From Melioribacteraceae bacterium (GTDB taxonomy: Bacteria > Bacteroidota > Ignavibacteria > Ignavibacteriales > Melioribacteraceae), in contig JAEINS010000011.1 of the NCBI GenBank assembly GCA_016342755.1, positions 1-64,000 of the forward strand: a stretch of DNA of 64,000 nt, given 5' to 3'. Made by a program: the position numbers and the translations under genes. Within the stretch, counting starts at the first letter, position 1, and each line of letters opens with the position of its first letter. The notes beneath the pieces were generated by a model. The model saw only the letters and a list, made by a program, of their open reading frames with translations, did no database searches and was not told the DNA's origin. Positions 313 to 16,368 of this stretch are shown here, piece after piece.

Positions 313-868
313 ATTTCAATTCTATATTAGTACGATTAAAACCATTATTCCACACTTCGATACGCTTCGCACTCAGTGATTTCAATTCTATATTAGTACG
401 ATTAAAACCGCAAATATACTAATAAATTGGTTTGATTCTTATATATTTCAATTCTATATTAGTACGATTAAAACCTCATTTTTCGCACTATTTAAATTAA
501 TATATCGCCATTTCAATTCTATATTAGTACGATTAAAACTTTACAAGCACTTTAAGACACTATAAAAGAACTTAATTTCAATTCTATATTAGTACGATTA
601 AAACCACTGCCGTCTATGCTCATAACAGAGCTTAAAGAACATTTCAATTCTATATTAGTACGATTAAAACAAGTTGATTATGTTATTGCCCGTAAAGGGT
701 ACGAATATTTCAATTCTATATTAGTACGATTAAAACGCCATCAGCAAGGTATGGAGGGTTCCCATTGCAAGCATTTCAATTCTATATTAGTACGATTAAA
801 ACGCTGCAAATAATAAAAGAGCCTGGTTAGGCGATTCCATTTCAATTCTATATTAGTACGATTAAAAC

Positions 869-904
869 CACTGCCGTCTATGCTCATAACAGAGCTTAAA
901 GAAC
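869..904. repeat. Duplicate CRISPR spacer (copy of 605-640)
   Basis: This 36-nt spacer begins CACTGCCGTCTATG and ends CTTAAAGAAC. It is identical to the spacer at 605-640, and the two copies are four repeat-spacer units apart in the leader-distal part of the array. Confidence 0.95.
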
Positions 905-3900
905 ATTTCAATTCTATATTAGTACGATTAAAACTTATGGACGGATCAGCAAATGATTTAGATCATTTTTATTTCAATTCTATATTAGTACGATTAAAAC
1001 GCATTGCTTTAAGTCCAGCAGAGCCTTGGTTTAACAATTTCAATTCTATATTAGTACGATTAAAACTTCAGCGGTTGCCCTTTAATAGATGGTTCTGTAA
1101 CATTTCAATTCTATATTAGTACGATTAAAACTGGTAATAACATACAATTTAGAGAAAACGGAACAGTATTTCAATTCTATATTAGTACGATTAAAACTGA
1201 AGTTACGGACTTGCTACAAACGTTGCCAGTAGTATTTCAATTCTATATTAGTACGATTAAAACTAAGTCTGCTTGCAGATGGATATTCTACAAAAGAAAT
1301 ATTTCAATTCTATATTAGTACGATTAAAACTTTTTATTCAAATTATGGCTTTCAACGTATTCCATTATTTCAATTCTATATTAGTACGATTAAAACTTAC
1401 CAAAGAAAGGGAAATAATTTATGACCCATTTAGATTTCAATTCTATATTAGTACGATTAAAACCTGCACAATATATTCTGGAATTTGATTTAGAGTAAAT
1501 ATTTCAATTCTATATTAGTACGATTAAAACCCTAAGTGGCGATCTGCCCGCGTATGCGTGACTTAATTTCAATTCTATATTAGTACGATTAAAACAAGAT
1601 GTATGAAATATATAAGGAGCGTGTCAAATAAATTTCAATTCTATATTAGTACGATTAAAACTCTGCTATTTTTAACATTTGTACTGCTTGCCTAAAAATT
1701 TCAATTCTATATTAGTACGATTAAAACTATTTCCCAATTTTATTGATCAACATTTAAACTATCATTTCAATTCTATATTAGTACGATTAAAACTATATCT
1801 TATAAAATAATGGTTATCTGATGTAGCCATTTCAATTCTATATTAGTACGATTAAAACGCTGACTGCTGAGAAAAAGGAGCAGCTTAAAGATAATTTCAA
1901 TTCTATATTAGTACGATTAAAACTGGACTCGAAAAAGCGAGTACACCACCCAAAAGGGATTTCAATTCTATATTAGTACGATTAAAACATAGAATTGTCA
2001 TCCCGTATCTGCATAGAGGAATGCATTTCAATTCTATATTAGTACGATTAAAACCCCTCAGAATCGAAATATCGACCTCGTAAATAAACATTTCAATTCT
2101 ATATTAGTACGATTAAAACTTGCTCAATTCACTGAATCAATGGGTAAACAAGTTCATTTCAATTCTATATTAGTACGATTAAAACAATAAAGTTCCACCG
2201 CCGAAATCTGTTACTGAAAAGATTTCAATTCTATATTAGTACGATTAAAACTGTGTTTTATTGTGTTCTATTGTACTTAGAAATTAATTTCAATTCTATA
2301 TTAGTACGATTAAAACCCCAGCTCGGCATAACTTACGATAAAGCTCAATTTGATTTCAATTCTATATTAGTACGATTAAAACTGAAGCGCCCGAAGAGGC
2401 GATCGAAGTAAATCCACAATTTCAATTCTATATTAGTACGATTAAAACTCTGCCGTTAGGCGCAGAATATATACAAGGACGACGATTTCAATTCTATATT
2501 AGTACGATTAAAACGCAAAGGCACTTATTTATGCTGAGACTGTTAAGACCATTTCAATTCTATATTAGTACGATTAAAACTGGAGTTGGCGGTGGTGCAA
2601 CTAATAAATTTAATAGTATTTCAATTCTATATTAGTACGATTAAAACCCAGCAAACTATTTTTTCTACCGTTGGCTCATCAGTATTTCAATTCTATATTA
2701 GTACGATTAAAACCTACCGGAGCATTTTTCACAAATATGAATAAAATCATTTCAATTCTATATTAGTACGATTAAAACGCACCAGAGCGCGAAGTTAAAA
2801 TATCATTTAATAAAATTTCAATTCTATATTAGTACGATTAAAACAGCGAAACACAGACTCTAATCTTCGAAAGATTAATAATTTCAATTCTATATTAGTA
2901 CGATTAAAACATGGGAAAAGCTTTGGCGATGGTAACCTCCGGTTCAAATTTCAATTCTATATTAGTACGATTAAAACATATATATTATCGCGAGACGAAA
3001 TCAGCCAAATATTATTTCAATTCTATATTAGTACGATTAAAACCAAGAAGTGATATTGTTGAAGAGAAGCTGATCTTCATTTCAATTCTATATTAGTACG
3101 ATTAAAACAAGACTGCTCAAACTGGATTGATAACATTTGCAAGATTTCAATTCTATATTAGTACGATTAAAACCAGTCAGTGTTTTAACATATCCAATTT
3201 AAAAAACGGATTTCAATTCTATATTAGTACGATTAAAACTTCGCTTGCTGAAAGAGTTTTAGTTTGCTTAGATAAATTTCAATTCTATATTAGTACGATT
3301 AAAACTAAGATCTTATATAAATATCATTGTCAGTTTTTAGTATTTCAATTCTATATTAGTACGATTAAAACTGATACAGACATCAGCGATAACGTAAGTT
3401 TTAAGAAATTTCAATTCTATATTAGTACGATTAAAACTATATCCGTATTTAACATCGTTGTACTTTTACAAGTATTTCAATTCTATATTAGTACGATTAA
3501 AACCATTGCTCCGGCGGCAGTTGTCATCTCATTAAGATATTTCAATTCTATATTAGTACGATTAAAACAAGAACGCCAGTTCCAGAATAAACCTTTCCTT
3601 CAAAATTTCAATTCTATATTAGTACGATTAAAACCTAAAAAGTTATTCAAATTCAAAGTTGATAAGCTAATTTCAATTCTATATTAGTACGATTAAAACT
3701 TTAAGTCGGGCGTTCTTGCGTGCGAGGTCTTCGGCATTTCAATTCTATATTAGTACGATTAAAACTTATACAACTGTCCTTTTATTTCTGCATATCCTTT
3801 ATTTCAATTCTATATTAGTACGATTAAAACGTCTTTGAAATTGTTCATACCGCACTTGAAATATAATTTCAATTCTATATTAGTACGATTAAAACCTAAA

Positions 3901-4883
3901 ATTAAATTTGAATTTAAATTTAATTCAACAATTTCAATTCTATATTAGTACGATTAAAACCAGCATACCACTATAAACACGAGTATCATATACAAAATTT
4001 CAATTCTATATTAGTACGATTAAAACCAACTTCGTCTGTATCATAATTACTCATATTTAGTTATTTCAATTCTATATTAGTACGATTAAAACTCTAAGTC
4101 GCCATATATTCTAACGAGAATATAGGATATTTCAATTCTATATTAGTACGATTAAAACCTTCCAGTCAAACTCACCTTTAATTTTGTAATATGGATTTCA
4201 ATTCTATATTAGTACGATTAAAACACCAGTATAATTTCTTTTGTAGTGTAAACATCCAACATTTCAATTCTATATTAGTACGATTAAAACTAAAATTGTA
4301 ATAGGGTTTTCTATCAGCTCAGTTATTATTTCAATTCTATATTAGTACGATTAAAACGTCGTCCACCTTTATTTTTAGCCAAAGGTTTCGCTTATTTCAA
4401 TTCTATATTAGTACGATTAAAACAGGGTTATAATCTTGTCAAGCCCGCTCACGTCCTTATTTCAATTCTATATTAGTACGATTAAAACCATATTGTCGTT
4501 TTCTATTTCCTTCCCAGCGTTAAAATTTCAATTCTATATTAGTACGATTAAAACTAATATAACAGAACAAATGATATATGTACAGCTTGAATTTCAATTC
4601 TATATTAGTACGATTAAAACTCCACTAAAGCGGTCGGAACAGGTTACAAAAAAGGATTTCAATTCTATATTAGTACGATTAAAACTCTATCTTTATTTTC
4701 AAGAACAGCTCTTCTTAAAAAATTTCAATTCTATATTAGTACGATTAAAACGAAACCGGAAGATTGAAAGCTTACCAAGATGATAACATTTCAATTCTAT
4801 ATTAGTACGATTAAAACCTCTGCCAAAGATTCTTGTTTATACACCTTGTTCTCATTTCAATTCTATATTAGTACGATTAAAAC

Positions 4884-4919
4884 CTCTGCCAAAGATTCTT
4901 GTTTATACACCTTGTTCTC
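4884..4919. repeat. Tandem duplicate CRISPR spacer (copy of 4818-4853)
   Basis: This spacer begins CTCTGCCAAAGATTC and ends CCTTGTTCTC. It is identical to the spacer immediately before it (4818-4853), so one whole repeat-spacer unit is duplicated in tandem. Confidence 0.95.
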
Positions 4920-6793
4920 ATTTCAATTCTATATTAGTACGATTAAAACATAATATAATGGCTTATATACCAGTTAAAAATATATTTCAATTCTATATTA
5001 GTACGATTAAAACATTAACTACCGTAAACGGCTCAGCTACCGTTTTGTGATTTCAATTCTATATTAGTACGATTAAAACGTTCACCTAGAACGTGCCGAT
5101 GCATTTGCAGAAGAATTTCAATTCTATATTAGTACGATTAAAACTACTTGATGTGTTTATAACCGGCTTCTTTTAACGTTATTTCAATTCTATATTAGTA
5201 CGATTAAAACTTAGTTCTGGTATCATTTTTGTCTCATTATTCTATATTTCAATTCTATATTAGTACGATTAAAACTTTACCCAATGGTTTTTCCTTTTTG
5301 GAGGATTATAATTTCAATTCTATATTAGTACGATTAAAACAAAGACTTTAGAACCAAAGAAAATCTACTATACATTATTTCAATTCTATATTAGTACGAT
5401 TAAAACAGAGTTGCGGCGACCATTTAACAACATTTTGAAACTATTTCAATTCTATATTAGTACGATTAAAACGTTGATCAAAAAAAAGATTATCTGTTAG
5501 GCAAAGGGGATTTCAATTCTATATTAGTACGATTAAAACGCTGTATAGCATGGCGGATTGCGAAATAGTAAATATATTTCAATTCTATATTAGTACGATT
5601 AAAACAGCGACTGAATCGGCTTAACATAGTACTATGCTGAAATTTCAATTCTATATTAGTACGATTAAAACAAGATCGCTCCAAATGTCAATTTCAGAAG
5701 GTACAACATTTCAATTCTATATTAGTACGATTAAAACTCAACAGAGCTAAAACCAAACACGATCTATTACTTATTTCAATTCTATATTAGTACGATTAAA
5801 ACCAAGCAAAATTATTCCTCATGATCAACAATACAGAAATTTCAATTCTATATTAGTACGATTAAAACTGTTCCTAAATGTTTTAATCTTTTTTGTTTAG
5901 GTTTATTTCAATTCTATATTAGTACGATTAAAACTCTCCTATAGCTTTTCTTTTAAGATCATGACCGAAATTTCAATTCTATATTAGTACGATTAAAACT
6001 CATTCCAGTCACAGAGCCAGTTATTAAATAACAGTATTTCAATTCTATATTAGTACGATTAAAACTTAACTGTTAATTTTAACCCTACAACAGAAAAGTA
6101 ATTTCAATTCTATATTAGTACGATTAAAACTGCGTAATCATATCCACTTGATATGTTTACGTAAAAATTTCAATTCTATATTAGTACGATTAAAACAAAC
6201 GATGGCAAGGCTGCCCGATAAGAGCGTGAGTCATTTCAATTCTATATTAGTACGATTAAAACTAGAAACTTTGAACGAAATTGAAAAACAGCATAAACAA
6301 TTTCAATTCTATATTAGTACGATTAAAACATGGTGGGAATATTATTGCTGGTGGTGTCCTAACAATATTTCAATTCTATATTAGTACGATTAAAACTCAA
6401 GGCAAATCTTATAAACAAGTAGCTGAACAAATATTTCAATTCTATATTAGTACGATTAAAACCAGAATCGAGTCCATTTAAGACGATCTCTAAAATAAAT
6501 TTCAATTCTATATTAGTACGATTAAAACCAGATGGAATAATCTACTATGATAAAGTGCAAAACGAATTTCAATTCTATATTAGTACGATTAAAACAAAAA
6601 GTTTATTTATAAAGACGGGTCTTTTAATTAAATTTCAATTCTATATTAGTACGATTAAAACTATTAAACAAAAACCAATTAGTAATACTACTTATGAATT
6701 TCAATTCTATATTAGTACGATTAAAACTCCGCAGTTATAGAGCTAGAATAATAAGTTAATAATATTTCAATTCTATATTAGTACGATTAAAAC

Positions 6794-6892: not shown

Positions 6893-7156
6893 TTATATAA
6901 AAGTATCCATTGCGTTTCTTTCAATTCCAATTACTCCACGCTCAACATATGTATTTGATCCATGATTATAATAAATTACACTGTCTTTTTCAGTATTAAT
7001 TATGGTATTAATACCAGATTTTATTTCTGCAAATTGAGACTCTGTTACTTCGCCTTCAAAAACACTGTTCTGAATCCATATTAGATGCTGGCGGAGAAAT
7101 TTTAGTAATTTTGCTCCCCGTTTGGGAGCCGCGTCATATATTATTATTACATACAT
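6893..7156 (-). CDS. cas2: CRISPR-associated endoribonuclease-fold protein Cas2
   Basis: This 87-residue protein has the normal Cas2 length and the family landmarks. The N-terminal strand MYVIIIYDAAPKRGAKLLK carries the conserved YD, followed by LRQHLIWIQNSVFEGE, typical of the Cas2 ferredoxin fold. Cas2 forms the central dimer of the Cas1-Cas2 integrase that inserts new spacers at the leader end. It is the last gene of the operon, about 100 bp downstream of cas1 and directly before the leader. The product appears intact, which with the intact cas1 and cas4 suggests the array can still acquire spacers. Confidence 0.95.
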   Translation of the reverse strand: MYVIIIYDAAPKRGAKLLKFLRQHLIWIQNSVFEGEVTESQFAEIKSGINTIINTEKDSVIYYNHGSNTYVERGVIGIERNAMDTFI

Positions 7157-7256: not shown

Positions 7257-8339
7257 TTACCACCAAATCTTAAATGGTTTATATTCTTTTTCGCCTAACA
7301 GATGTTTTATAAGTTTATAACACTCAAGCCTTATTAAATATCTGTAACTAACTGATTTTTTTAGCTGGCGGTGTTTAATAGTAGTTTTAAGTTTTTCGTC
7401 AAATTCTTTAAGATATAATTTACGTCCCTGGTCTGAGAGGTAACAATAATTTAGATCCTTAGAAAAGTGATGTTCTTTAATTATACCTTTGTTAAGCAGC
7501 GAAAAAATTATACGGTCGGTTAATAAAGGCTTAAATATTTCGGCTATATCAAGTGAAAGTGAAAATCTTCTTTCGCCAGGTTCATGAAGATAGCTTATAA
7601 GCGGGTTTAACTGTGTTTTGTAAATTTCGCTTAAAACAGTAGTGTATACAAGTGAATTACCAAAACTGATTAGCGCGTTTATCTGATTATCAGGCGGTTT
7701 CTTTTTTCGTTTCGAAAACTGTATTGGTTTATCAATTGCCAAATGCCATGCTGTGTAATAAGTTGAGCGGGTATATCCTTCGATGCCCATAAGTTCCTGT
7801 ATTGTACAAACATCTTTAATGCCGGTTAGAGTATTAGTAATCATTTTTATAAAAGGACTCATATCTTTACCGCGAACATCATAATATTGCAAATTTTTTA
7901 AAATATTATCTGCCGAACCTTTTACAAATGCTGCGGCAATATCCACCCGTTTTTCGATATCCTGATAATGTTCCACCTGTTTAACTAAAAGTCTGCCCGA
8001 AACAAATGGTTCGCGCGGATAAAAGGAGCCTGAATAATAACCGTAATAGTTAAATAGATGAAGTGTAATTTCTTTTTGAGCAATAAAGTTTAGGAATTTT
8101 GTGTTAAAGCGGAGTTCGCTAAAACAGTATATTGAATCTATATCCTCAACCGGAATTGGTTTGCGAGGCAGTTTTTTGGGTTCTGATTCATCGTCATCTT
8201 CTACTTCGGAATCATCAACTTCAATTCCTTCTGTTATTTCTTCTTCAACAGGATATTCATTTTCTCCGGGTTCAAAGTAAAGTGTATTTTGTCGGCGTAT
8301 TAATTTACCGCTGCTAAATATGTAGTAGTTTCTTTTCAT
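7257..8339 (-). CDS. cas1: CRISPR integrase Cas1 with an acidic insertion
   Basis: Cas1 is the metal-dependent integrase of spacer acquisition. From the ATG at 8339 the protein has 360 residues. The type I-B Cas1 signatures are clear: MKRNYYIFSSGKLIRRQNTL at the start, VEDIDSIYCF, LHLFNYYGYYSGSFYPRE, and the catalytic triad Glu in MGIEGYTR (about 187), His in ISYLHEPGERRFS (about 252) and Asp in LSLDIAEIFKP (about 264). Unusually, the N-terminal beta domain carries an acidic, low-complexity stretch between YFEPG and KLPRKPIPVED (about residues 24-53), rich in Glu and Asp. An in-frame GTG at 8354 would add five residues, but those codons lie in the inverted repeat of the neighbouring cassette, so the ATG is preferred. 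No strong Shine-Dalgarno precedes it. Confidence 0.95.
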   Translation of the reverse strand: MKRNYYIFSSGKLIRRQNTLYFEPGENEYPVEEEITEGIEVDDSEVEDDDESEPKKLPRKPIPVEDIDSIYCFSELRFNTKFLNFIAQKEITLHLFNYYGYYSGSFYPREPFVSGRLLVKQVEHYQDIEKRVDIAAAFVKGSADNILKNLQYYDVRGKDMSPFIKMITNTLTGIKDVCTIQELMGIEGYTRSTYYTAWHLAIDKPIQFSKRKKKPPDNQINALISFGNSLVYTTVLSEIYKTQLNPLISYLHEPGERRFSLSLDIAEIFKPLLTDRIIFSLLNKGIIKEHHFSKDLNYCYLSDQGRKLYLKEFDEKLKTTIKHRQLKKSVSYRYLIRLECYKLIKHLLGEKEYKPFKIWW

Positions 8340-8340
8340 T

Positions 8341-8364
8341 GACACTAATCTCACTAATTTTCAC
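8341..8364 (+). repeat. Left inverted repeat of the GxxExxY cassette
   Basis: The sequence begins GACACTAATCTCAC and ends ATTTTCAC. Its reverse complement matches 8753-8776 at 21 of 24 positions, including the outermost nine bases GACACTAAT. Confidence 0.8.
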
Positions 8365-8367
8365 AAA

Positions 8368-8739
8368 TTATAATACTATCCGTTTGTATTGTAATGAGTT
8401 TTCGCCAAAATTGACTAGTAACCCTAATTTTAATTTAGATGCTGCTAAATAATTTAATGTCTGTTTTATATTGCCAGATGTTAGCCTTTCTATAGCTTTT
8501 ATTTCAAGTATAATTTTTTCATAAATAACAAAATCGGCAAAGTAATTATGTTTAATTTTAATCCCTTTATAACCAATATAGAATTCCTTTTCTCTATTAT
8601 AAGCGATATTATTCTGATTAAATTCTATTTCGAGAGCATCTTTATAAACTATTTCATTAAAACCTTTACCAAGTTCTTTATGCACCTCAAAACAGCATCC
8701 AATAATTTTATATGCTTCATCTCTATAAATTAAATCCAT
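8368..8739 (-). CDS. GxxExxY-family protein (PD-(D/E)XK nuclease-like)
   Basis: The 123-residue product carries the family-defining GxxExxY motif in GKGFNEIVYKDALEIEF. A nuclease-like core follows, with Asp in YFADFVI and EIK in IILEIKAIERL, and then TSGNIKQTLNYLAASK. This matches the GxxExxY / PDDEXK_3 family, whose biochemical role is not established to my knowledge. The start at 8739 is chosen because AAAGGG lies 5 nt upstream and family members typically begin MDLIYRDEAYKIIG; an upstream ATG at 8790 would run through the inverted repeat and overlap cas4. It lies between cas4 and cas1 on the same strand and is flanked by inverted repeats. A nuclease in an adaptation module could act in spacer processing, but a passenger gene is the simpler reading. 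Confidence 0.85.
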   Translation of the reverse strand: MDLIYRDEAYKIIGCCFEVHKELGKGFNEIVYKDALEIEFNQNNIAYNREKEFYIGYKGIKIKHNYFADFVIYEKIILEIKAIERLTSGNIKQTLNYLAASKLKLGLLVNFGENSLQYKRIVL

Positions 8740-8752
8740 TATATCCCTTTTC

Positions 8753-8776
8753 GTGATAATTCGTGAAATTAGTGTC
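8753..8776 (-). repeat. Right inverted repeat of the GxxExxY cassette
   Basis: On the plus strand it begins GTGATAATTCGTG and ends AATTAGTGTC. It ends 1 bp before the cas4 stop codon and pairs with 8341-8364 with three mismatches. Confidence 0.8.
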
Positions 8777-8777
8777 T

Positions 8778-9260
8778 TTAGATGTAGCACAAATCATAGT
8801 ATGAACATTTTTTACAAAAGGGTTTATTTATTACTTCACTTGGAACTTTGGAATCGATAATTTTTTTTACCTCATTTTCAATCTCACGCAACTTTACTCT
8901 ATCAGATTCAGTAAGAAATACATCTTCAGTTTTTTTAAGTTTTGGATAATCAATTTTACCCGTTACTCCTTCTATTCCTTTCGATTCCAGAACGCTTATG
9001 TAATATTTAACCTGCCAGATATGTGTTTCTTCCATCTTGTCCGATTTCTTAATCTCGTGAATTGTTTTGGTTTTAGCGTCGTAAAAATCGAGAGCAATTC
9101 CTTCAATCTGTATTTCATGTTTTTTACGTTTGTAGGTATTATCGGATATAAATCTGCCCATTGCAACTGTATCGCTGTTTTGTTCCATATTAATTGAATT
9201 TGCAAAAAGCCACAAATGTCTTTTACAATGGAAATAATATGATATCTGTGTGCCAGTCAT
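8778..9260 (-). CDS. cas4: CRISPR-associated exonuclease Cas4
   Basis: Cas4 is a RecB-like nuclease that trims prespacers and helps select PAM and orientation. The 160-residue product has all four expected iron-sulfur cysteines: Cys12 in YYFHCKRHLWLF, and Cys149, Cys152 and Cys158 in FCKKCSYYDLC. The RecB core is seen in GRFISDNTYKRK, the Asp in ALDFYDAKTKTIHEIKKS and the QVKYYISVL helix. The length is typical of type I-B Cas4. It follows cas3 by about 30 bp and ends at the inverted repeat of the GxxExxY cassette, which separates it from its usual neighbour cas1. Confidence 0.94.
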   Translation of the reverse strand: MTGTQISYYFHCKRHLWLFANSINMEQNSDTVAMGRFISDNTYKRKKHEIQIEGIALDFYDAKTKTIHEIKKSDKMEETHIWQVKYYISVLESKGIEGVTGKIDYPKLKKTEDVFLTESDRVKLREIENEVKKIIDSKVPSEVINKPFCKKCSYYDLCYI

Positions 9261-9289: not shown

Positions 9290-11929
9290 CTAAAATCCAA
9301 TAAAGTTGATATCTTTTTCAATATCAGACTTTAAACCATCTTCAAAAGAATAAATACTTTCATAGTTATCAAGCATAAGAAAACCATATTTTTCTTCGCC
9401 AAAATGAAGAAGTCTATTTACTTCATTTGGATTCTTCCATATGCTGAAAGTAAACTTCGAAATAATTGAAGAAATGATTTTTAGATTTATTTTTTTTGAA
9501 ATAAAATCATCCAATTTATTTTTAATGATTTTTTCATAAATATTCCAAACATCAAAACCGTTAATATTCACATCAGTATGTATATCAAAAAAATTTTCTA
9601 AAAACCTAATTTCCTCCGCCGAAAAATATTTTCTCCCAATTCTTAATGGGACAAAAATTGATAATGAATTGCTTCTAATAAGTCTAAAGGATTTATCAAC
9701 TTCTATATAATTATTACTTTTTATCAATTCCTTAAATTCTGGTAATGTATCAGTCTGGTATTCATTCTCATTAGCTCTATTAATATTTTCAAATACTAAA
9801 TGATAGAAATAATCAAAATTTTTCTTATGAAGTATATCAAGATATTCTTCTTGATTTAGACCAAGTTTATACCTTAAATCTGAACGATAAACCTTTTGAA
9901 CATCCCCAGAGTAAAATATATAAAGTTTGGAATTTGATTTCTTCGCATTTCTATTTATTCTACCAGCTATTTGTTCTTCGGAATCTATAAGTGATTTATC
10001 CTTAAATCCAATATCCATATCTATATCTACACCCGCTTCAATTACTTGTGTTGTTACAACAATTACTTTGGTTTCCATTGCAGATTTTAAATAAGAAATT
10101 ATTTCTTGTCGTCTTGGCTCTAGAATGGTACCAGAAATAAGAAATATCTCATATTCCGAAAATTCATCATCGATTTTTAATAATTCATAAAACTCAGATG
10201 CTCTTTTTTTTGTAATAAATTCAACTATAGTTTTAACGGTTTTATGTCCTTCGGTATATTGCGCAGATTTTTGTAAGACTATATTCCTTAAATTTTCTTC
10301 TGTAAAACTATCCCTCAATATATATTCAATTTCTACTCTCTTTAAAAAATTTGGATTCCGGAAATATTCATCTCTATTTTTGATCAAATAATTGAATTTG
10401 TCATTTTGTGATTTATCTATTAGCAATCTGCTGATTTTGGGAAGTGTGGCTGACATTATTATAAAAGTGATATTGTAATGCTTGCTATAGTTTTGTATCA
10501 AATAATTTATTTTATCCCATTCTGTTGGCGGATAAGTCTGCATTTCATCAATAATAACAATAGAGTTTACAAGGCGATGTAAAATATAATTTTTCTCTTT
10601 TGATATTGATGTTAAAATATCAAAAAAACCAACATGTGAAATAAGAGTTATTGGAAAATTTACAAATAGAGAATCAATATAATTCAACTTTTCATTTCCA
10701 TAAGTTCCATCATCGTCTTGAATATTAAATTGCGCTTTAGAATGTATTTCGGCTATCTCAGAATTGTTTAAACTTAGATTCTCTTTTATAGAATTAAATG
10801 TCTGCGTTATCAATGTTGTAAAAGGAAAGACGTAAAATACTTTTGTTATTTCCCTTTGCGAAGATAAAAGTTCACCTAAAGCCAGTAACGATAGATTGGT
10901 TTTACCAGCTCCTGTTGGAGCTTCAATGTAAAATAGATTCTCTGAATCTGCAAGTCGTATTCCAGTTATTGCTTCTGCGGATAAACTCTGCCGGAGTTTG
11001 TTTAAATTAGAATTATTTCGCTCAACAAGTATTCTAACACTAAGGCTTTCATAGCGTTCAAAATTAGCGTAAAGCTCTTTATTATATTCAATTTCTTTAA
11101 TATTATTAATTATTTTATCTTTAAATGCCGAAGAAATAACACCAAACTCGTTAACCTTAAGTCCTATCATAAATTCGTTAGTTGAGTAATAATCTGATGC
11201 AGTAAGTAGTGAAGAGTTCAACTTTACTAATGAAAAGGCTAAAAAACTCTGGTCAATTATTTTGGATTTATCTAATACTGAATAAAAGTATCGATTTAGA
11301 AATTTAAAATATTTTTTAATATCCAGATCGTTAAATAAACTAAAACGTGAAGAATAAAAGCACAAATCAGCGTTACTTATTATTTCAATATTTTGATTAC
11401 TTGGTTTACTTAAACTTCCGTGATGTTTATCAATAGAATGAACAAATAGAAATGACATATAGTACAATAGAATTTTTACATTTTCTTCAAAATCTCCTGT
11501 GTATATTTTATTAAAATAATATAAAAGGAAAAGATGAGAACTTAAAATAGAGTGTTTTGAACCAATACCATTCCCTTTTTTTACAAAGAAGGAATTATTC
11601 ATTTTATCTAATTGAAAATTTTCATTTATTTTACCAAAGTCATGAAAGTAGATTGTACTGATAAACATTTCTTTTATAAATTCTGCAATATGTTCAGAGT
11701 TAAAACCTTGCGCAATTACAAATTCTGTAATTTGGTTATTTATTATCACCTCTAACTTATTAGCTTCAATTAAACGAAGGGAATAATTTAGAGTTAATGT
11801 TAAATGTTCGGAAAGCAATTCATATTTTACAGGTTCATCTTTTCTGTGAGCAAAATAATTATTGCTTCCCGTTAAGATATTTTCAAGTTTGAAAATATCA
11901 TTTTTTAATATGTTTGAAAATGTTTTCAT
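9290..11929 (-). CDS. cas3: CRISPR-associated helicase-nuclease Cas3 (HD and DExH)
   Basis: Cas3 unwinds and degrades target DNA once Cascade has formed an R-loop. The 879-residue protein has an N-terminal HD nuclease domain (His42 in SEHLTL, HD at 96-97 in YFHDFGKINENF, later histidines in SKHSILSSH and HSIDKHHGS). An SF2 helicase follows, with Walker A EAPTGAGKTN, motif II IVIIDEMQ, motif III IMSATLP, and motifs V-VI QVIEAGVDIDMD and EEQIAGRINRN. It is a single HD-helicase fusion, as usual in type I-B. The gene sits 2 bp after cas5, so the effector genes are closely packed. No truncation is seen. Confidence 0.95.
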   Translation of the reverse strand: MKTFSNILKNDIFKLENILTGSNNYFAHRKDEPVKYELLSEHLTLTLNYSLRLIEANKLEVIINNQITEFVIAQGFNSEHIAEFIKEMFISTIYFHDFGKINENFQLDKMNNSFFVKKGNGIGSKHSILSSHLFLLYYFNKIYTGDFEENVKILLYYMSFLFVHSIDKHHGSLSKPSNQNIEIISNADLCFYSSRFSLFNDLDIKKYFKFLNRYFYSVLDKSKIIDQSFLAFSLVKLNSSLLTASDYYSTNEFMIGLKVNEFGVISSAFKDKIINNIKEIEYNKELYANFERYESLSVRILVERNNSNLNKLRQSLSAEAITGIRLADSENLFYIEAPTGAGKTNLSLLALGELLSSQREITKVFYVFPFTTLITQTFNSIKENLSLNNSEIAEIHSKAQFNIQDDDGTYGNEKLNYIDSLFVNFPITLISHVGFFDILTSISKEKNYILHRLVNSIVIIDEMQTYPPTEWDKINYLIQNYSKHYNITFIIMSATLPKISRLLIDKSQNDKFNYLIKNRDEYFRNPNFLKRVEIEYILRDSFTEENLRNIVLQKSAQYTEGHKTVKTIVEFITKKRASEFYELLKIDDEFSEYEIFLISGTILEPRRQEIISYLKSAMETKVIVVTTQVIEAGVDIDMDIGFKDKSLIDSEEQIAGRINRNAKKSNSKLYIFYSGDVQKVYRSDLRYKLGLNQEEYLDILHKKNFDYFYHLVFENINRANENEYQTDTLPEFKELIKSNNYIEVDKSFRLIRSNSLSIFVPLRIGRKYFSAEEIRFLENFFDIHTDVNINGFDVWNIYEKIIKNKLDDFISKKINLKIISSIISKFTFSIWKNPNEVNRLLHFGEEKYGFLMLDNYESIYSFEDGLKSDIEKDINFIGF

Positions 11930-11931
11930 AA

Positions 11932-12726
11932 TTAAAACAATTGTATTATTGTATCACCATTTTCAATTTTGCAAAGCTTTTCAGCTTTAAACGATTGTGG
12001 CAACATCATATTTGTATAACTAAAACTCTTTAGATTATAATTTCCTGTTACATCATTAAATTCAAAAGGTAACTGTTCAAAGTATGCAAATACTTCCGGA
12101 GAAAGAGCTGATTCTAAATCTATCTCCATCCCCAATCCTTGAGGTTGCCTATTATTAATTCTTTCAGATTTTTCTTTATAGAAGATTGAATCAATTCTAA
12201 ATTTAGAAGTGGGTTTGTAGTCTTGAACAAAATTTTCAATCTCTGAAAAATTATCCCACCACAATTGGAAATCGTTTTTACCAAGATATGGAATATAAAC
12301 TGCATGTCCATTTTTCAGATTTAAATATAAATTTCTCTCAACATTATTCTCAACATCTAATTTTAGATAGATTCGATAACTTGGCTTAATAAGAATTTGT
12401 TCCTTAATAATTAAATTACCACCCTGTTCTTGGCTTGCATAACCAACACTATTGTTATATTGAACAATGGTTTTATTATACAATCCTTTTTGACTATTTA
12501 GTGGTACGATACTCAGTTTAATATTCTCAAGTTTTTCCCAATATTCAGGAACACCATTTGGATATGCTTGATACATGCCTTTCAATCCACAAATAGCACC
12601 TAAAATACCAAGGAGAGCCGGACGGTGAATAATGTTATAGGTAAAATAAATTCCGGCATTAGTATCTATTTTTTTTAGAAACCCAAATTGTGATTTTAAA
12701 TCAATCGAAATTAATTTAGTATTCAT
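11932..12726 (-). CDS. cas5: Cascade subunit Cas5 (type I-B)
   Basis: The 264-residue protein begins MNTKLISIDLKSQFGFLKK, followed by IIHRPALLGILGAICGLKG, the conserved N-terminal RAMP region of Cas5 from the Hmari-type I-B family. In Cascade, Cas5 caps the 5' handle of the crRNA and contacts Cas8 and the last Cas7. It lies between cas7 and cas3 with gaps of only 2 bp on each side, pointing to one transcript with coupled translation. No strong Shine-Dalgarno is present before its ATG. The C-terminal half is less conserved in this family and shows no motif I recognise. Confidence 0.9.
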   Translation of the reverse strand: MNTKLISIDLKSQFGFLKKIDTNAGIYFTYNIIHRPALLGILGAICGLKGMYQAYPNGVPEYWEKLENIKLSIVPLNSQKGLYNKTIVQYNNSVGYASQEQGGNLIIKEQILIKPSYRIYLKLDVENNVERNLYLNLKNGHAVYIPYLGKNDFQLWWDNFSEIENFVQDYKPTSKFRIDSIFYKEKSERINNRQPQGLGMEIDLESALSPEVFAYFEQLPFEFNDVTGNYNLKSFSYTNMMLPQSFKAEKLCKIENGDTIIQLF

Positions 12727-12728
12727 AA

Positions 12729-13700
12729 CTAAATCTCGTTTTCATTTAAAATGTTCTTAAATACAATTTTTTCAGTATTTTCTAAACCTTTAATTTCAGC
12801 AGTAACAGGATTGTAATAAACTTCAACTTTCTCAACTTCATCTATTATTTGATTAATTATCAAGTTTACTTCTTCCAATTGTATTTCAGTTTTCGCATCA
12901 CTTTTTTTCACTGTTATTAACTCAGTTAAACTTGGTAGTACTTTCATTGAATTCTCTTTAAGCTGAATCCATAAAGTCACTTCATTTTCAGTTCCCATTT
13001 TTCTTGAAGAATCCAATGCAGTAACGCTATTATTAACAGAGTTTTTGAATTTATTTATATCATCATTTGATAAAAATATTTTTTCTGCATCCGATTTCCC
13101 TTCATTTAGCATTGAATAAAATTCTTCAGTGTTTTTAGGATTTATTGAAAAATGAAAAACATAGTGTCCTTCTTTCAAATTTGTTTGATTTCCAATAGTG
13201 GACATTCCTTTTTCATCAGAACCTTCTTTTCCGGGATTTCTAAAAGGTGAAAGAATATCTTCTGTGTAAATATCATTTTCCGGGAATTTATTTACACCAT
13301 GATTTATTTGAACTGGTCCATGAATTGAAATATTTGTTTTACCTGCAAAAGTAGCTCCAAATAGTTTTACATCGAGACATGTAAGAAGATTTGATAGTAC
13401 AATTTTCTTATTAACATCTTTCTTTTCAGTTGGAAAATCGCCGAACAATTCTATATATGTATCATCCAAAGTTAGTGGATTTAGATTTTCATTAAGACGC
13501 TTTACATAAAATAAATTCTTTTCTCCATTTAGCTTTCTAAAATAATCTTTAATTGCATATTTAAGTGCCTTATCAGTTGAATAAACAACTCCATCTGGTA
13601 AAGTACGTGGATGATGTGTAAAATCAGCATTAAAATTTGAATTGATTGATTTTAGAATTACTGCTCCAAATACTCTGTTATTAAATTTTGTTTGTTCCAT
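12729..13700 (-). CDS. cas7: Cascade backbone subunit Cas7 (Csh2-like)
   Basis: Cas7 subunits coat the spacer part of the crRNA in a helical filament. The 323-residue product has the Csh2-type start RVFGAVILKSINSNFNADF and motifs such as SNLLTCLDVKLFGATFAG and SIHGPVQINHG. The ATG at 13700 is selected because AAAGGAGAATAAA precedes it at good spacing and it sits 1 bp from the cas8b stop. A longer frame from 13736 would overlap cas8b and add a lysine-rich tail unlike the family. The strong ribosome site suits a subunit needed in several copies per complex. Confidence 0.93.
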   Translation of the reverse strand: MEQTKFNNRVFGAVILKSINSNFNADFTHHPRTLPDGVVYSTDKALKYAIKDYFRKLNGEKNLFYVKRLNENLNPLTLDDTYIELFGDFPTEKKDVNKKIVLSNLLTCLDVKLFGATFAGKTNISIHGPVQINHGVNKFPENDIYTEDILSPFRNPGKEGSDEKGMSTIGNQTNLKEGHYVFHFSINPKNTEEFYSMLNEGKSDAEKIFLSNDDINKFKNSVNNSVTALDSSRKMGTENEVTLWIQLKENSMKVLPSLTELITVKKSDAKTEIQLEEVNLIINQIIDEVEKVEVYYNPVTAEIKGLENTEKIVFKNILNENEI

Positions 13701-13701
13701 T

Positions 13702-15525
13702 TTATTCTCCTTTGTTTGTTTTTTCTTTTGATTCAAAAATCATAGATTGTGAAAAATATCCTGCCAGTATTATTGGTAATAAATCTTTAATATTTGTTAA
13801 ACATGTGTAACCTAATATTTCACCCGCCAATTTTTCAAATCTACCTTTACCATAATCACCATACCATTCAAAGGCATGCTTATATTGATTTATTGAGAGC
13901 AGAATTGATTTGTGAAATAGCTTGGGGTCACTCTTATTAATAAATGGTTCTAACAATGCATGTGATTTATTGCTGCTCTTGCTTTCCTTAATTATATTAT
14001 AAATAAGTTGACCAGATGCAAAAGCATAATCTGTGTCATTTTCAAGATGATAACTCTCATTTGCAAAGAGATTTCTCATCATTTTCTGAAATTCAGGTAT
14101 TTGTGACGCCATGTTAATTCCTCCAAAGTTTTTATTTGTTTTATCGAAAAATTTATTTACCGAAAAAAGAATATTTAGTTTTTCTTTTATTCCCCATGTT
14201 TTATCAAAATCATCATTCCTAAGTATTTCATCTAAAATCTCAGACAATAATATTTTATAGAAAATTATTGCGGAAATTGCTTCTCTTTTTGATTTATAAA
14301 TAAAATCGTAAAAGTTTTTTCTGTAGCTTAAAATATTATGAAATGAAGTTTTCGAACAATAATTTGAGTCGATTTCATCAAAATATTTAAATAAATAATC
14401 GCCCTTTTTAGTTTTTACAATTAACGAATTTGAAAATATCTTTTGAAGAATTGCTATTTCAAATTGGAAAATATTGTTTATTGTGATGTCATAAACGTTA
14501 TTTAATTGCATTACATTTTTGACAATCATATTTTCAATTTTGTACTCAAAAGATGAAACATAATCGACATCATTAATTATAATGCCACTTTTGGTATTAC
14601 TCCAATTCAATAAATAGTAATTTGTTAAATCATCATGTCTGTTTTCAAACATTTGTTTTATTATATCATGGAAATTTTCAACTCCTTCTCGCCCAAATAA
14701 ACGAATAACTTTATTATTTAACTCTTCTTTCTCAATAAAAATTGGAAGAGGATTAGGGAGTTTTCTTGGCTTGCTTTTAAGTAGTTTTTCAAATTTATAT
14801 AGATTTATTGCTTGGGCTTGGGTAATTCTATTATTAACAAGATAATCTGAGGTTTGATGCTGCATGTATTTCTTTTTAATGTTTGCCCCATTTAGGAAAC
14901 CACTCAATCCGAAAACTTCATCATTCTCATCACGAAGATTAAAAAAGTCATTTACAAATATTTTGTCTCTCAAATAGTTGTTTTGAACCAAGACAATTTT
15001 ATCAAAAGATACGTTATAATAAATTTTTACATAATCCCCGGTTTTTATTTCGTTATAATTTCTGTCAGATTTTATCATCTGAAACAAATTATCAATCGAA
15101 AACTCTTCAAGATTATTGACTAATTGAATATCTTCTTCTTCAATATAATTTTTAACATTTTTATAGTATTCTATTATTCTATCCTTAGCACTTGAATAGT
15201 TTTCCTTTTTAAACCACAAAATAAATGGAGAACTAGAATGAATCTGCTTTTTGGAATCAATCGCCTTGTTCATATTAACAAGTCCTGAATAATATTCCAG
15301 CCTAGCAAAATCAACATTACACTCAATTGGAATTTCGTTTCCCTCATTATCCATTGTTACTGAAGTTCCATCTTTCTTGAAGATATAACTTTTGTAGCTA
15401 TCACCAATCACCTCCCAATCATCATTTAATTGTAACACTATATGAAGTCCTGGCGTAGGGTTTAAGTTTGAGGTAAAATAATCTGAATCAATTGAATCAA
15501 TAAAATTTGAAATTTCTTTAATCAT
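13702..15525 (-). CDS. cas8b: Cascade large subunit Cas8b (Csh1-like)
   Basis: Large subunits recognise the PAM and recruit Cas3. The product is 607 residues, a usual size for type I-B Cas8b/Csh1. Csh1-like features include MIKEISNFIDSID at the start, a C-terminal helical region with SQIPEFQKMMRNLFANES, and the end segment KGRFEKLAGEILGYTCL with PIILAGYFSQSMIF. This family is divergent, so the call rests partly on position between cas6 and cas7. The start at 15525 follows GAGGTGCGCT; the in-frame ATG at 15537 lacks such a site. No zinc-binding cysteine pair is visible. Confidence 0.88.
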   Translation of the reverse strand: MIKEISNFIDSIDSDYFTSNLNPTPGLHIVLQLNDDWEVIGDSYKSYIFKKDGTSVTMDNEGNEIPIECNVDFARLEYYSGLVNMNKAIDSKKQIHSSSPFILWFKKENYSSAKDRIIEYYKNVKNYIEEEDIQLVNNLEEFSIDNLFQMIKSDRNYNEIKTGDYVKIYYNVSFDKIVLVQNNYLRDKIFVNDFFNLRDENDEVFGLSGFLNGANIKKKYMQHQTSDYLVNNRITQAQAINLYKFEKLLKSKPRKLPNPLPIFIEKEELNNKVIRLFGREGVENFHDIIKQMFENRHDDLTNYYLLNWSNTKSGIIINDVDYVSSFEYKIENMIVKNVMQLNNVYDITINNIFQFEIAILQKIFSNSLIVKTKKGDYLFKYFDEIDSNYCSKTSFHNILSYRKNFYDFIYKSKREAISAIIFYKILLSEILDEILRNDDFDKTWGIKEKLNILFSVNKFFDKTNKNFGGINMASQIPEFQKMMRNLFANESYHLENDTDYAFASGQLIYNIIKESKSSNKSHALLEPFINKSDPKLFHKSILLSINQYKHAFEWYGDYGKGRFEKLAGEILGYTCLTNIKDLLPIILAGYFSQSMIFESKEKTNKGE

Positions 15526-15558
15526 AGCGCACCTCATTTATTTTATATTCATTATTTC

Positions 15559-16368
15559 CTATTCATCAATTACTTCCACTAAACCAAAACCCATACTGTT
15601 TTTTTCGCCAAACCCGCATTGGTAACCGGTTTTAATAAGCTGCGGATCACCTACAAGTTCAAAGGGTGCTACATTGCCAATAATATCAATTGGATTTTTA
15701 AGATCGGCTAAAATTGATACTTTTTTTGTTGTCCGCTGTTTTAGTTTTATTTTTCTGTCAAGATAATCCTGATCCCATCTGATAAGAACCGGTTTGCCTT
15801 CGTAAGGCTTATTGTAAATTAGTTCATATTTATTATAAAGATTGGAATTAAAAACGCGATTAAATTCTAGAGGATCGTCATTAATACGATAAAATTTATT
15901 TCTTCTTTTTCCATTCACTTCTTCGCCAGACGAAACCACCATTGGCGATAGCAATTTAAATTTTGCGGAATTGTTAAAATCTGGTTCATTAAGAATTTCA
16001 ACTTGCCTGATTTCGAATACTGATTTAATATTATCGGCCATTATCTCAATTGAGTTTTCAGAAAAGGTACCCAGTACAAAATTTTTAATGAACTGTTCAA
16101 CTAACGGAGAGCTTACAATAAGAGACAGGGTTTGGTGATTAAGATCTATATAATTATTATGAATTTTTAAGTATTTATTAAAACGGACTGCAAAAGAAAA
16201 CAACTTATAAGTTTTACCGGCAGACTTAAAACCCAGATCGTGCAAAAAATCAGCAAACTGAGGGGATCCAAATTTTAAGAGTTTATAAATTGCAGCGGCA
16301 AATGAATAATTGTAATTAATTGCCATCGATTTATTATTTACTGGTTCTAGAGTTAATTTGAGTCGCAT
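15559..16368 (-). CDS. cas6: CRISPR RNA endoribonuclease Cas6
   Basis: Cas6 cuts the pre-crRNA within each repeat and leaves the 8-nt 5' handle. The 269-residue protein shows a RAMP fold: N-terminal MRLKLTLEPVNN, a central FKLLSPMVVSSGEE segment, and the C-terminal glycine-rich loop in YQCGFGEKNSMGFGLVEV that marks the family. A candidate catalytic His is not obvious near the N terminus; Cas6 active sites vary. It is the first gene of the operon, with about 530 bp of non-coding sequence upstream where the operon promoter should lie. The array it would process has 99 repeats. Confidence 0.93.
   Translation of the reverse strand: MRLKLTLEPVNNKSMAINYNYSFAAAIYKLLKFGSPQFADFLHDLGFKSAGKTYKLFSFAVRFNKYLKIHNNYIDLNHQTLSLIVSSPLVEQFIKNFVLGTFSENSIEIMADNIKSVFEIRQVEILNEPDFNNSAKFKLLSPMVVSSGEEVNGKRRNKFYRINDDPLEFNRVFNSNLYNKYELIYNKPYEGKPVLIRWDQDYLDRKIKLKQRTTKKVSILADLKNPIDIIGNVAPFELVGDPQLIKTGYQCGFGEKNSMGFGLVEVIDE

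Follow-up and report, generated by a model that had tools for sequence, protein, structure and literature searches.

GxxExxY proteins and the four-helix-bundle proteins of 23S rRNA intervening sequences (IVSs) are common bacterial families, and we know of no settled function for either. MITEs and REPINs are short inverted-repeat units without a transposase, and PD-(D/E)XK homing endonucleases are stand-alone small nuclease genes able to spread their own unit. Judging from the accessible part of the published account, the nearest known element is the IVS of Coxiella, in which a small open reading frame (ORF) lies within a unit described as selfish and excised by RNase III (PMC4990558). The accessible text of another study relates PF05635, the family of the four-helix-bundle proteins, to the DGR Avd protein (PMC10053308). 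With regard to CRISPR, the available part of one report shows a GxxExxY gene beside a CRISPR-linked reverse transcriptase, at a place where another tool had called cas4 (PMC8934634), and a figure legend in a large CRISPR survey (Science 2023, PMC10910872) names the 23S rRNA IVP among associations of the adaptation module; GxxExxY does not occur in the main text of that survey, and no repeat-arm cassettes were seen in the portion available. Here we describe a GxxExxY gene between cas4 and cas1 that is probably the cargo of a small mobile cassette lacking a transposase, for which the adaptation module is a hotspot.

The cassette between cas4 and cas1

The window, by which we mean the whole 64,000-nt stretch analyzed (Melioribacteraceae bacterium, contig JAEINS010000011.1, positions 1 to 64,000), encodes on its reverse strand a cas operon in which the first-pass annotation had seen a GxxExxY gene separating cas4 (8778..9260; PF01930, 183.7 bits; TIGR00372, 65.5 bits against a cut-off of 65) from a type I-B cas1 (cas1b, 7257..8339; TIGR03641, 463.9 bits), with cas2 (6893..7156; TIGR01573, 41.8 bits) farther downstream. 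This arrangement was confirmed: the GxxExxY gene (8368..8736, stop codon included) lies on the operon strand and encodes a PD-(D/E)XK_3 protein of 122 aa. The 24-bp inverted repeats proposed to flank it (8341–8364 and 8753–8776) do match at 21 of 24 positions and can be extended to arms of 27 nt (85% complementary), and their outer ends lie, exactly as claimed, 1 bp from the cas1 ATG (8339) and from the cas4 stop codon (8778–8780). The 5′ arm (8750..8776, reverse strand) reads GACACTAATTTCACGAATTATCACGAA on the operon strand and contains the words CACTAAT and CACGAAT and a third, imperfect word, CACGAAA; the 3′ arm (8341..8367, reverse strand), next to cas1, is its inverted copy. With both strands considered, the nuclease is the only gene of at least 70 aa in the cassette, so the unit lacks the transposase of its own that marks a transposon or insertion sequence, as had been supposed.

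The 103-bp gap between cas1 and cas2 of the window holds neither a GxxExxY nor a four-helix-bundle gene. The effector part of the operon (9290..16368, reverse strand), which served as an internal control, is free of cassettes; it comprises cas3, cas5b, a Cas7-like gene whose protein scores under the cut-offs of its families, a presumed cas8 (13702–15537) for which no NCBIfam match was found, and cas6. No terminator-like site was found between positions 8200 and 9400. Promoter-like sites numbered 6, against 7.0 expected. A CRISPR array extends from 313 to 6793; it has 99 repeats, counted with up to 4 mismatches allowed, and 98 spacers, of which most measure 35–37 bp and two are present twice. 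None of its spacers matched the cassette, with up to 4 mismatches allowed. The same genome encodes a second, distant Cas1 (42% identical) at G000:C14:79345–80409. A plasmid search with the cas4–cas1 DNA returned one weak record.

The window protein passes the curated cut-offs of both of its families (TIGR04256, 138.1 bits, cut-off 35; PF13366 PDDEXK_3, 124 bits, cut-off 22). Across 89 GxxExxY sequences G25, E28, D68 and K80 are invariant and E78, Q92 and Y96 are conserved in more than 90%, so that E28, D68, E78-x-K80 and Q92xxxY96 stand out. A structure model (pLDDT 94.1, 10 sequences) has the helices and strands in the order of the PD-(D/E)XK core, and the alignment, the model and the fold matches to PD-(D/E)XK nucleases agree on such a core with its catalytic residues. 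The top solved-fold match was 4ic1 (SSO0001; Foldseek E = 2.1 × 10−4; VIA-align Z = 10.0, rmsd 3.1, 98 residues), which we take to be a Cas4, with the remaining entries trailing at Z of 7.7 and below; a profile-profile comparison with Cas4 was weak (probability 13.6%), with ExK and QxxxY aligned. Searches by sequence for relatives of solved structure gave a single, unconvincing match (E = 0.58), no match was found in PHROGs at E = 0.001, and among the PADLOC models one of an RT-associated PDDEXK protein was matched, weakly and over part of its length (E = 3.4 × 10−4, 18.4 bits, model positions 101–173 of 226). Values of dN/dS between 0.06 and 0.17 in eight pairs, in which dS is high, indicate that the protein is maintained under purifying selection.

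One explanation for such a protein at this site, and the second of two possibilities raised in the first-pass annotation, is that GxxExxY was co-opted as an accessory, a small Cas4-like nuclease that trims or selects prespacers together with Cas4-Cas1-Cas2. The low dN/dS, the best fold match to 4ic1 and the ExK and QxxxY residues that align with Cas4, in what is a weak profile alignment, all speak in its favor; we nevertheless regard it as unlikely in view of the junction contents described below.

Inverted arms and their gene-specific words

The arms of the window cassette were found nowhere else in the 4.73-Mb genome with up to 3 mismatches allowed, and they therefore belong to a family of related arms rather than to one repeated sequence. 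The repeat search that the first-pass annotation had proposed thus came out negative for these arms within the genome, and positive for the architecture, which recurs around many other GxxExxY genes. Matches scoring above 30 over at least 70% of the model, with identical genes counted once, comprised 117 of 136 for GxxExxY and 63 of 77 for the four-helix bundle, and 115 and 60 of these had usable flanks. An inverted-repeat score of at least 16 (the window pair, row L001, scores 17.0) was reached by the flanks of 48 of the 115 GxxExxY genes compared with 2.0% of mispaired flanks, and by 30 of the 60 four-helix-bundle genes compared with 0.5%; more than half of the GxxExxY genes (67 of 115) fall under the threshold. 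These loci are a chosen sample: 80 regions around GxxExxY matches for which no locus had yet been defined were taken roughly in list order, skipping those at contig edges or with low scores, together with 30 further loci and others, and the four-helix-bundle sample consisted of 40 regions and 10 loci out of 361 matches. A phylum-wide set (20 further regions and 25 new loci, a few of which, e.g., L252, L269 and L274, come from the window's own family) had inverted arms at 17 of 45 further genes, compared with 0.2% of mispaired flanks.

Placement relative to neighboring genes was strongly biased. Where a neighbor was called on each side (ORFs of at least 100 aa, simple caller), 99 of 110 GxxExxY genes lay between two genes of the same strand and none had both neighbors opposite; the corresponding counts were 31 and 1 of 39 in the phylum set and 49 and 1 of 53 for four-helix-bundle genes. 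Such co-directional placement could arise if antisense insertions are selected against, and also if the route of insertion is linked to RNA. The genome of the window contains a second GxxExxY gene (L002, G000:C30, 1187–2110), situated between genes for a histidine kinase and a sigma-54-type response regulator, with four ~90-bp copies of a different hairpin, two on each side; this hairpin is local to that locus, with 4 copies in the genome.

The arms consist of short tandem words that differ between the two gene families. GxxExxY flanks in Ignavibacteria and other Bacteroidota carry words of ~9 bp, C[AG]CN[AG]A[GT], four-helix-bundle (23S-IVS) flanks carry 7-bp words, AGn5AG, and the two types hardly mix. 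Autocorrelation peaked at 9 bp (slightly at 10 bp) in the former and at 7, 14 and 21 bp in the latter, with no such peaks in stretches ~900 bp away; in the phylum set the excess was weaker and spread over 8–10 bp. Tandem C[AG]CN[AG]A[GT] words 8–11 bp apart were present in 65 of 117 upstream and 62 of 113 downstream GxxExxY flanks, compared with 0 of 62 and 1 of 60 four-helix-bundle flanks and 3 of 223 control stretches. Conversely, AGn5AGn5AG was present in 34 of 62 and 20 of 60 four-helix-bundle flanks and in 3 of 117 and 2 of 113 GxxExxY flanks. A motif search on the phylum flanks yielded a vague consensus, and the order-level pattern, applied there unchanged, was found in 25 of 44 and 24 of 45 flanks.

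In the 64 cassettes whose flanks both carry two words, the arms agreed at word positions 2, 5 and 7 (correlations of 0.89, 0.91 and 0.98), a level reached in 0 of 5,000 permutations although partly expected of inverted repeats. Words were assigned to 79 of the 117 rows of the GxxExxY protein tree (at least 3 words and both sides required). On this tree position 7, which is G or T, changed once, compared with a mean of 26.2 and a minimum of 18 in 200 shuffles; the exception was row L044, with T words on the G side. Positions 2 and 5 required 14 and 16 changes (shuffled: 25.3 and 26.8), and with the phylum rows added (111 of 162 labeled) position 7 required 5 (shuffled mean 32.75, minimum 27). 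Because the arms lie outside the protein alignment, the fit of position 7 to the tree implies that gene and arms have moved as one over long periods. At the level of sequence, these comparisons show that each gene family has its own word and period and that the G/T class follows GxxExxY phylogeny. They suggest that the protein reads the word, and joint inheritance without contact could also make word and protein class travel together. No description of such a word code was found in the literature searched, a search that was thin on subscription journals.

The arms might alternatively be an RNA element that pairs in the cas4–cas1 mRNA, is cut by RNase III as in the 23S IVS and tunes cas1-cas2, with the gene as a passenger. 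They do pair in the predicted minimum-energy structure of the junction RNA (z = −3.06; 1 of 100 shuffles as stable), placement is strictly co-directional, gene-less hairpins occur at the same junctions, and RNase III reportedly excises the Coxiella IVS (PMC4990558). However, a folding program pairs long inverted repeats whatever their function, hairpins also occur away from GxxExxY genes, and a stem alone would need no family-specific word that follows the phylogeny of a protein; we consider this explanation rather improbable.

Turnover of genes at the adaptation junctions

The cas4–cas1 (J1) and cas1–cas2 (J2) junctions were read in relatives with a homologous Cas1 and in named contigs, most of the latter from Ignavibacteria. 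In a set of 23 loci (the window plus L075–L096), GxxExxY genes lay in J1 of 8 and in J2 of 2, on the operon strand, and four-helix-bundle genes in J1 of 2 and in J2 of 2. An intact GxxExxY gene at either junction was found in 9 of the 23 loci; elsewhere it was swapped, decayed or absent, so it is not regularly present in one type, as an accessory gene of adaptation would be. No GxxExxY match was found in L097–L122, mostly from other groups. Further four-helix-bundle genes lie in J1 of L013 and J2 of L011, and those at cas junctions belong to PF05635 and carry their own 7-bp-word arms. By eye, the four-helix-bundle genes at J1 (L013, L079, L080) and at J2 (L011, L084, L090) look like two subfamilies. 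J1 of L093 contains an ORF6N gene, and J1 of L076 (8662–10000) a nucleotidyltransferase/HepT pair beside GxxExxY. An apparent second copy of the cas4 3′ end precedes the GxxExxY cassette in J1 of L076 (by eye), the 3′ arm in J1 of L086 is expanded to about eight tandem ~34-bp units before cas1, and the 828-bp J2 gap of an archaeal locus (L099, Methanophagales) appears by eye to hold a nucleotidyltransferase/HEPN pair.

Junctions with and without the cassette, whose comparison the first-pass annotation had proposed, both exist: besides the 8 of 23 with GxxExxY at J1, several relatives (L082, L083, L091, L096, L015 and L021) have J1 gaps of just 5–27 bp, and the 441-bp gap of the window is therefore an insertion relative to them. 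Intermediate states were also seen. In L010/L078, J1 contains a decayed GxxExxY gene whose arms are both kept; J2 of L093 contains one with a single arm left, and J2 of L080 another, as judged by eye. Hairpins made of the same words, but without a gene, occupy J1 and J2 of L087 and L095. Closely related loci differ in content: L080, L081 and L088, a supported group in Cas1, have three different junction contents, and L076 and L077, with Cas1 proteins 94% identical, have GxxExxY proteins 72% identical and mainly CACGGAT versus mainly CACTAAT words.

J1 of L089 and of L092 contains IS200-like transposase genes with repeated short palindromes, and an unlinked transposase of this kind (e.g., IS200-like/RAYT) might move the cassette in trans, with GxxExxY as cargo. 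The resemblance of the gene-less hairpins to MITEs would suit this idea; the palindromes of these transposase genes, however, have different words (by eye), and word class follows the GxxExxY protein instead, so we give trans mobilization only a small chance.

Together, J1 and J2 held a gene of either family in 14 of 46 junctions in the 23 loci, compared with 0 of 110 junctions upstream of cas4 (Fisher P = 7.5 × 10−9, in a test that ignores shared descent; control junctions were those between co-directional ORFs, not all identified as cas, with gaps of <700 bp). Across 58 genomes there were 142 GxxExxY and 361 four-helix-bundle matches, and 138 of the 142 fall outside J1 and J2. Chance would place ~0.024 GxxExxY and ~0.061 four-helix-bundle genes in the 34 J1 and J2 junctions of 17 loci, where 4 and 5 were seen (gene number was estimated at one per 1.1 kb, and shared descent ignored). 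In a check of CRISPR linkage beyond the window's family, GxxExxY lay, among the matches listed, within 1 kb of cas1 in G000, G028 and G089 (the last probably being L076). On a Cas1 tree of 32 loci (11 duplicates of 43 dropped), GxxExxY in J1 required 6 changes, 3 of them forced by well-supported branches, GxxExxY in J2 required 2, and four-helix-bundle genes required 3 in each junction. Overall, J1 labels did not scatter much beyond what shuffling gave, and a degree of inheritance is therefore likely; locus counts are not independent of descent. As judged from gene content, these results show that in Ignavibacterial loci with a Cas1 of this type J1 and J2 form a hotspot at which the cargo turns over, and they suggest that these cas operons are far more permissive of insertions in their adaptation half than in their effector half.

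The pattern might instead stem from a single old insertion between cas4 and cas1, inherited vertically and frequently lost, with the arms as remains. Certain GxxExxY pairs diverge in step with Cas1, and changes on the Cas1 tree may be losses, well-supported branches forcing only 3 of the 6 for GxxExxY at J1. As a sole explanation it is contradicted by the two GxxExxY clades at one site (L014 and L085a versus the rest); in addition, L076 and L077 combine near-identical Cas1 with divergent GxxExxY, both families use a second site between cas1 and cas2, and L158, an inner-clade member, lies in another operon. We consider it highly improbable.

The clades also bear on co-option. In one of them (SH-aLRT 99, in a tree built by a quick method), 9 of 14 members lie in CRISPR loci, including L186, which is beside a different Cas1, and this bias toward CRISPR is what still speaks most strongly for a functional link; the other 5 adjoin unrelated genes (named by eye), as in L201 (a histidine kinase-response regulator pair) and L158 (an aminotransferase-SDR pair). 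The GxxExxY genes in J1 of L014 and L085 come from a separate clade. Co-option would further accord with the GxxExxY counts at the two junctions (8 and 2 of 23 loci, on the operon strand) and with divergence in step with Cas1 in some pairs (72 and 72% for the window and L087; 80 and 83% for L077 and L086). Against it, about 13–14 of the 23 loci lack an intact GxxExxY at J1 or J2 or have other genes there, four-helix-bundle, ORF6N and other genes occupy the same site, decayed GxxExxY copies lie at J1 and J2, two separate clades supply the site, 5 members of the CRISPR-rich clade are outside CRISPR loci, and the arms are of the same kind as at non-CRISPR loci.

Mobility and comparison with known elements

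A search for exact matches to three consecutive words gave 12 in the 8 genomes searched and 0 with a reversed-pattern control; the pattern was strict and missed 5 of the 8 genomes, including the window's. A known GxxExxY gene lies less than 1 kb away from six of the matches; the other six have none at that distance, and in the 1-kb stretches around them no GxxExxY or four-helix-bundle domain was found. The gene-less L297 is an 89-bp hairpin with 40-nt arms. Short terminal inverted repeats are thus accompanied in relatives by dispersed gene-less copies, as in MITEs; none were found in the window's own genome. No target-site duplication was recognized in the flanking bases read, and no filled/empty pair of more than 90% identity was found, the one same-genus comparison (G023 and G172) being filled in both. 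The loci compared nevertheless show that the architecture recurs, that the genes lie co-directionally between operon genes and that gene-less and decayed versions exist, and mobility is well supported by this pattern. Of the two possibilities raised in the first-pass annotation, the mobile unit has accordingly gained from the recurrent architecture at other GxxExxY genes, the gene-less copies, the 5–27-bp gaps and the differing cargo of sister loci, and co-option has lost ground, since other genes share the junction, GxxExxY decays there with arms left behind, and 138 of 142 matches are elsewhere.

How such a cassette might spread can be sketched from its parts. A PD-(D/E)XK nuclease gene sits between inverted arms of tandem ~9-bp words, and the GxxExxY protein would recognize the words of its own arms. 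Nicks or cuts made there may spread the unit or maintain it, the cassette being copied by host repair or replication, in a manner that somewhat recalls a homing endonuclease or a self-encoded MITE. We hold the idea that GxxExxY itself drives the cassette through its own words only tentatively. The paired arms may fold in mRNA and so make an insert tolerable between two genes, and the adaptation junctions would be a hotspot because insertions are tolerated there and not between effector genes; a role in spacer acquisition would not be required. In a broader form, which we find conceivable but somewhat short of probable, each family would be a class of transposase-less cassette in which one small protein reads its own arm word (~9 or 7 bp), word and protein co-evolve, insertion is co-directional and the CRISPR adaptation operon is preferred. 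A gene-specific repeat code of this kind would make both families cheaply testable, through binding of a protein to its own word and a partner switch between G and T at position 7. Statistical links between a gene and CRISPR adaptation, such as that reported for the 23S rRNA IVP, can stem from a hotspot for mobile cassettes.

Set beside the known systems, the cassette resembles the 23S rRNA IVS with its S23p ORF (PF05635, TIGR02436) in placing a small ORF within a unit of a kind described, in the accessible literature, as selfish, and the four-helix-bundle family of that IVS uses the same cas junctions, with arms of 7-bp words. It differs in that the window cargo is a PD-(D/E)XK nuclease (PF13366) and not an S23p ORF, and in lying between the protein genes cas4 and cas1, not in rRNA, with arms of 9-bp words. 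With Cas4/RecB nucleases the protein shares its top fold match (4ic1) and the conserved D68, E78-x-K80 and Q92xxxY96, whereas its length is 122 aa, its conserved columns do not include the four cysteines of Cas4, and the profile probability is 13.6%. Like PD-(D/E)XK homing endonucleases, it is encoded by a stand-alone small nuclease gene that, by analogy, could spread its own unit, but the cassette has no intron or intein and carries repeats at its ends. MITEs and REPINs are likewise short inverted-repeat units without a transposase, and gene-less hairpins at dispersed sites add to the likeness; in contrast to them, the cassette includes a conserved nuclease gene, the arm word can be predicted from the clade of that gene, and the unit is nearly always co-directional with its neighbors.
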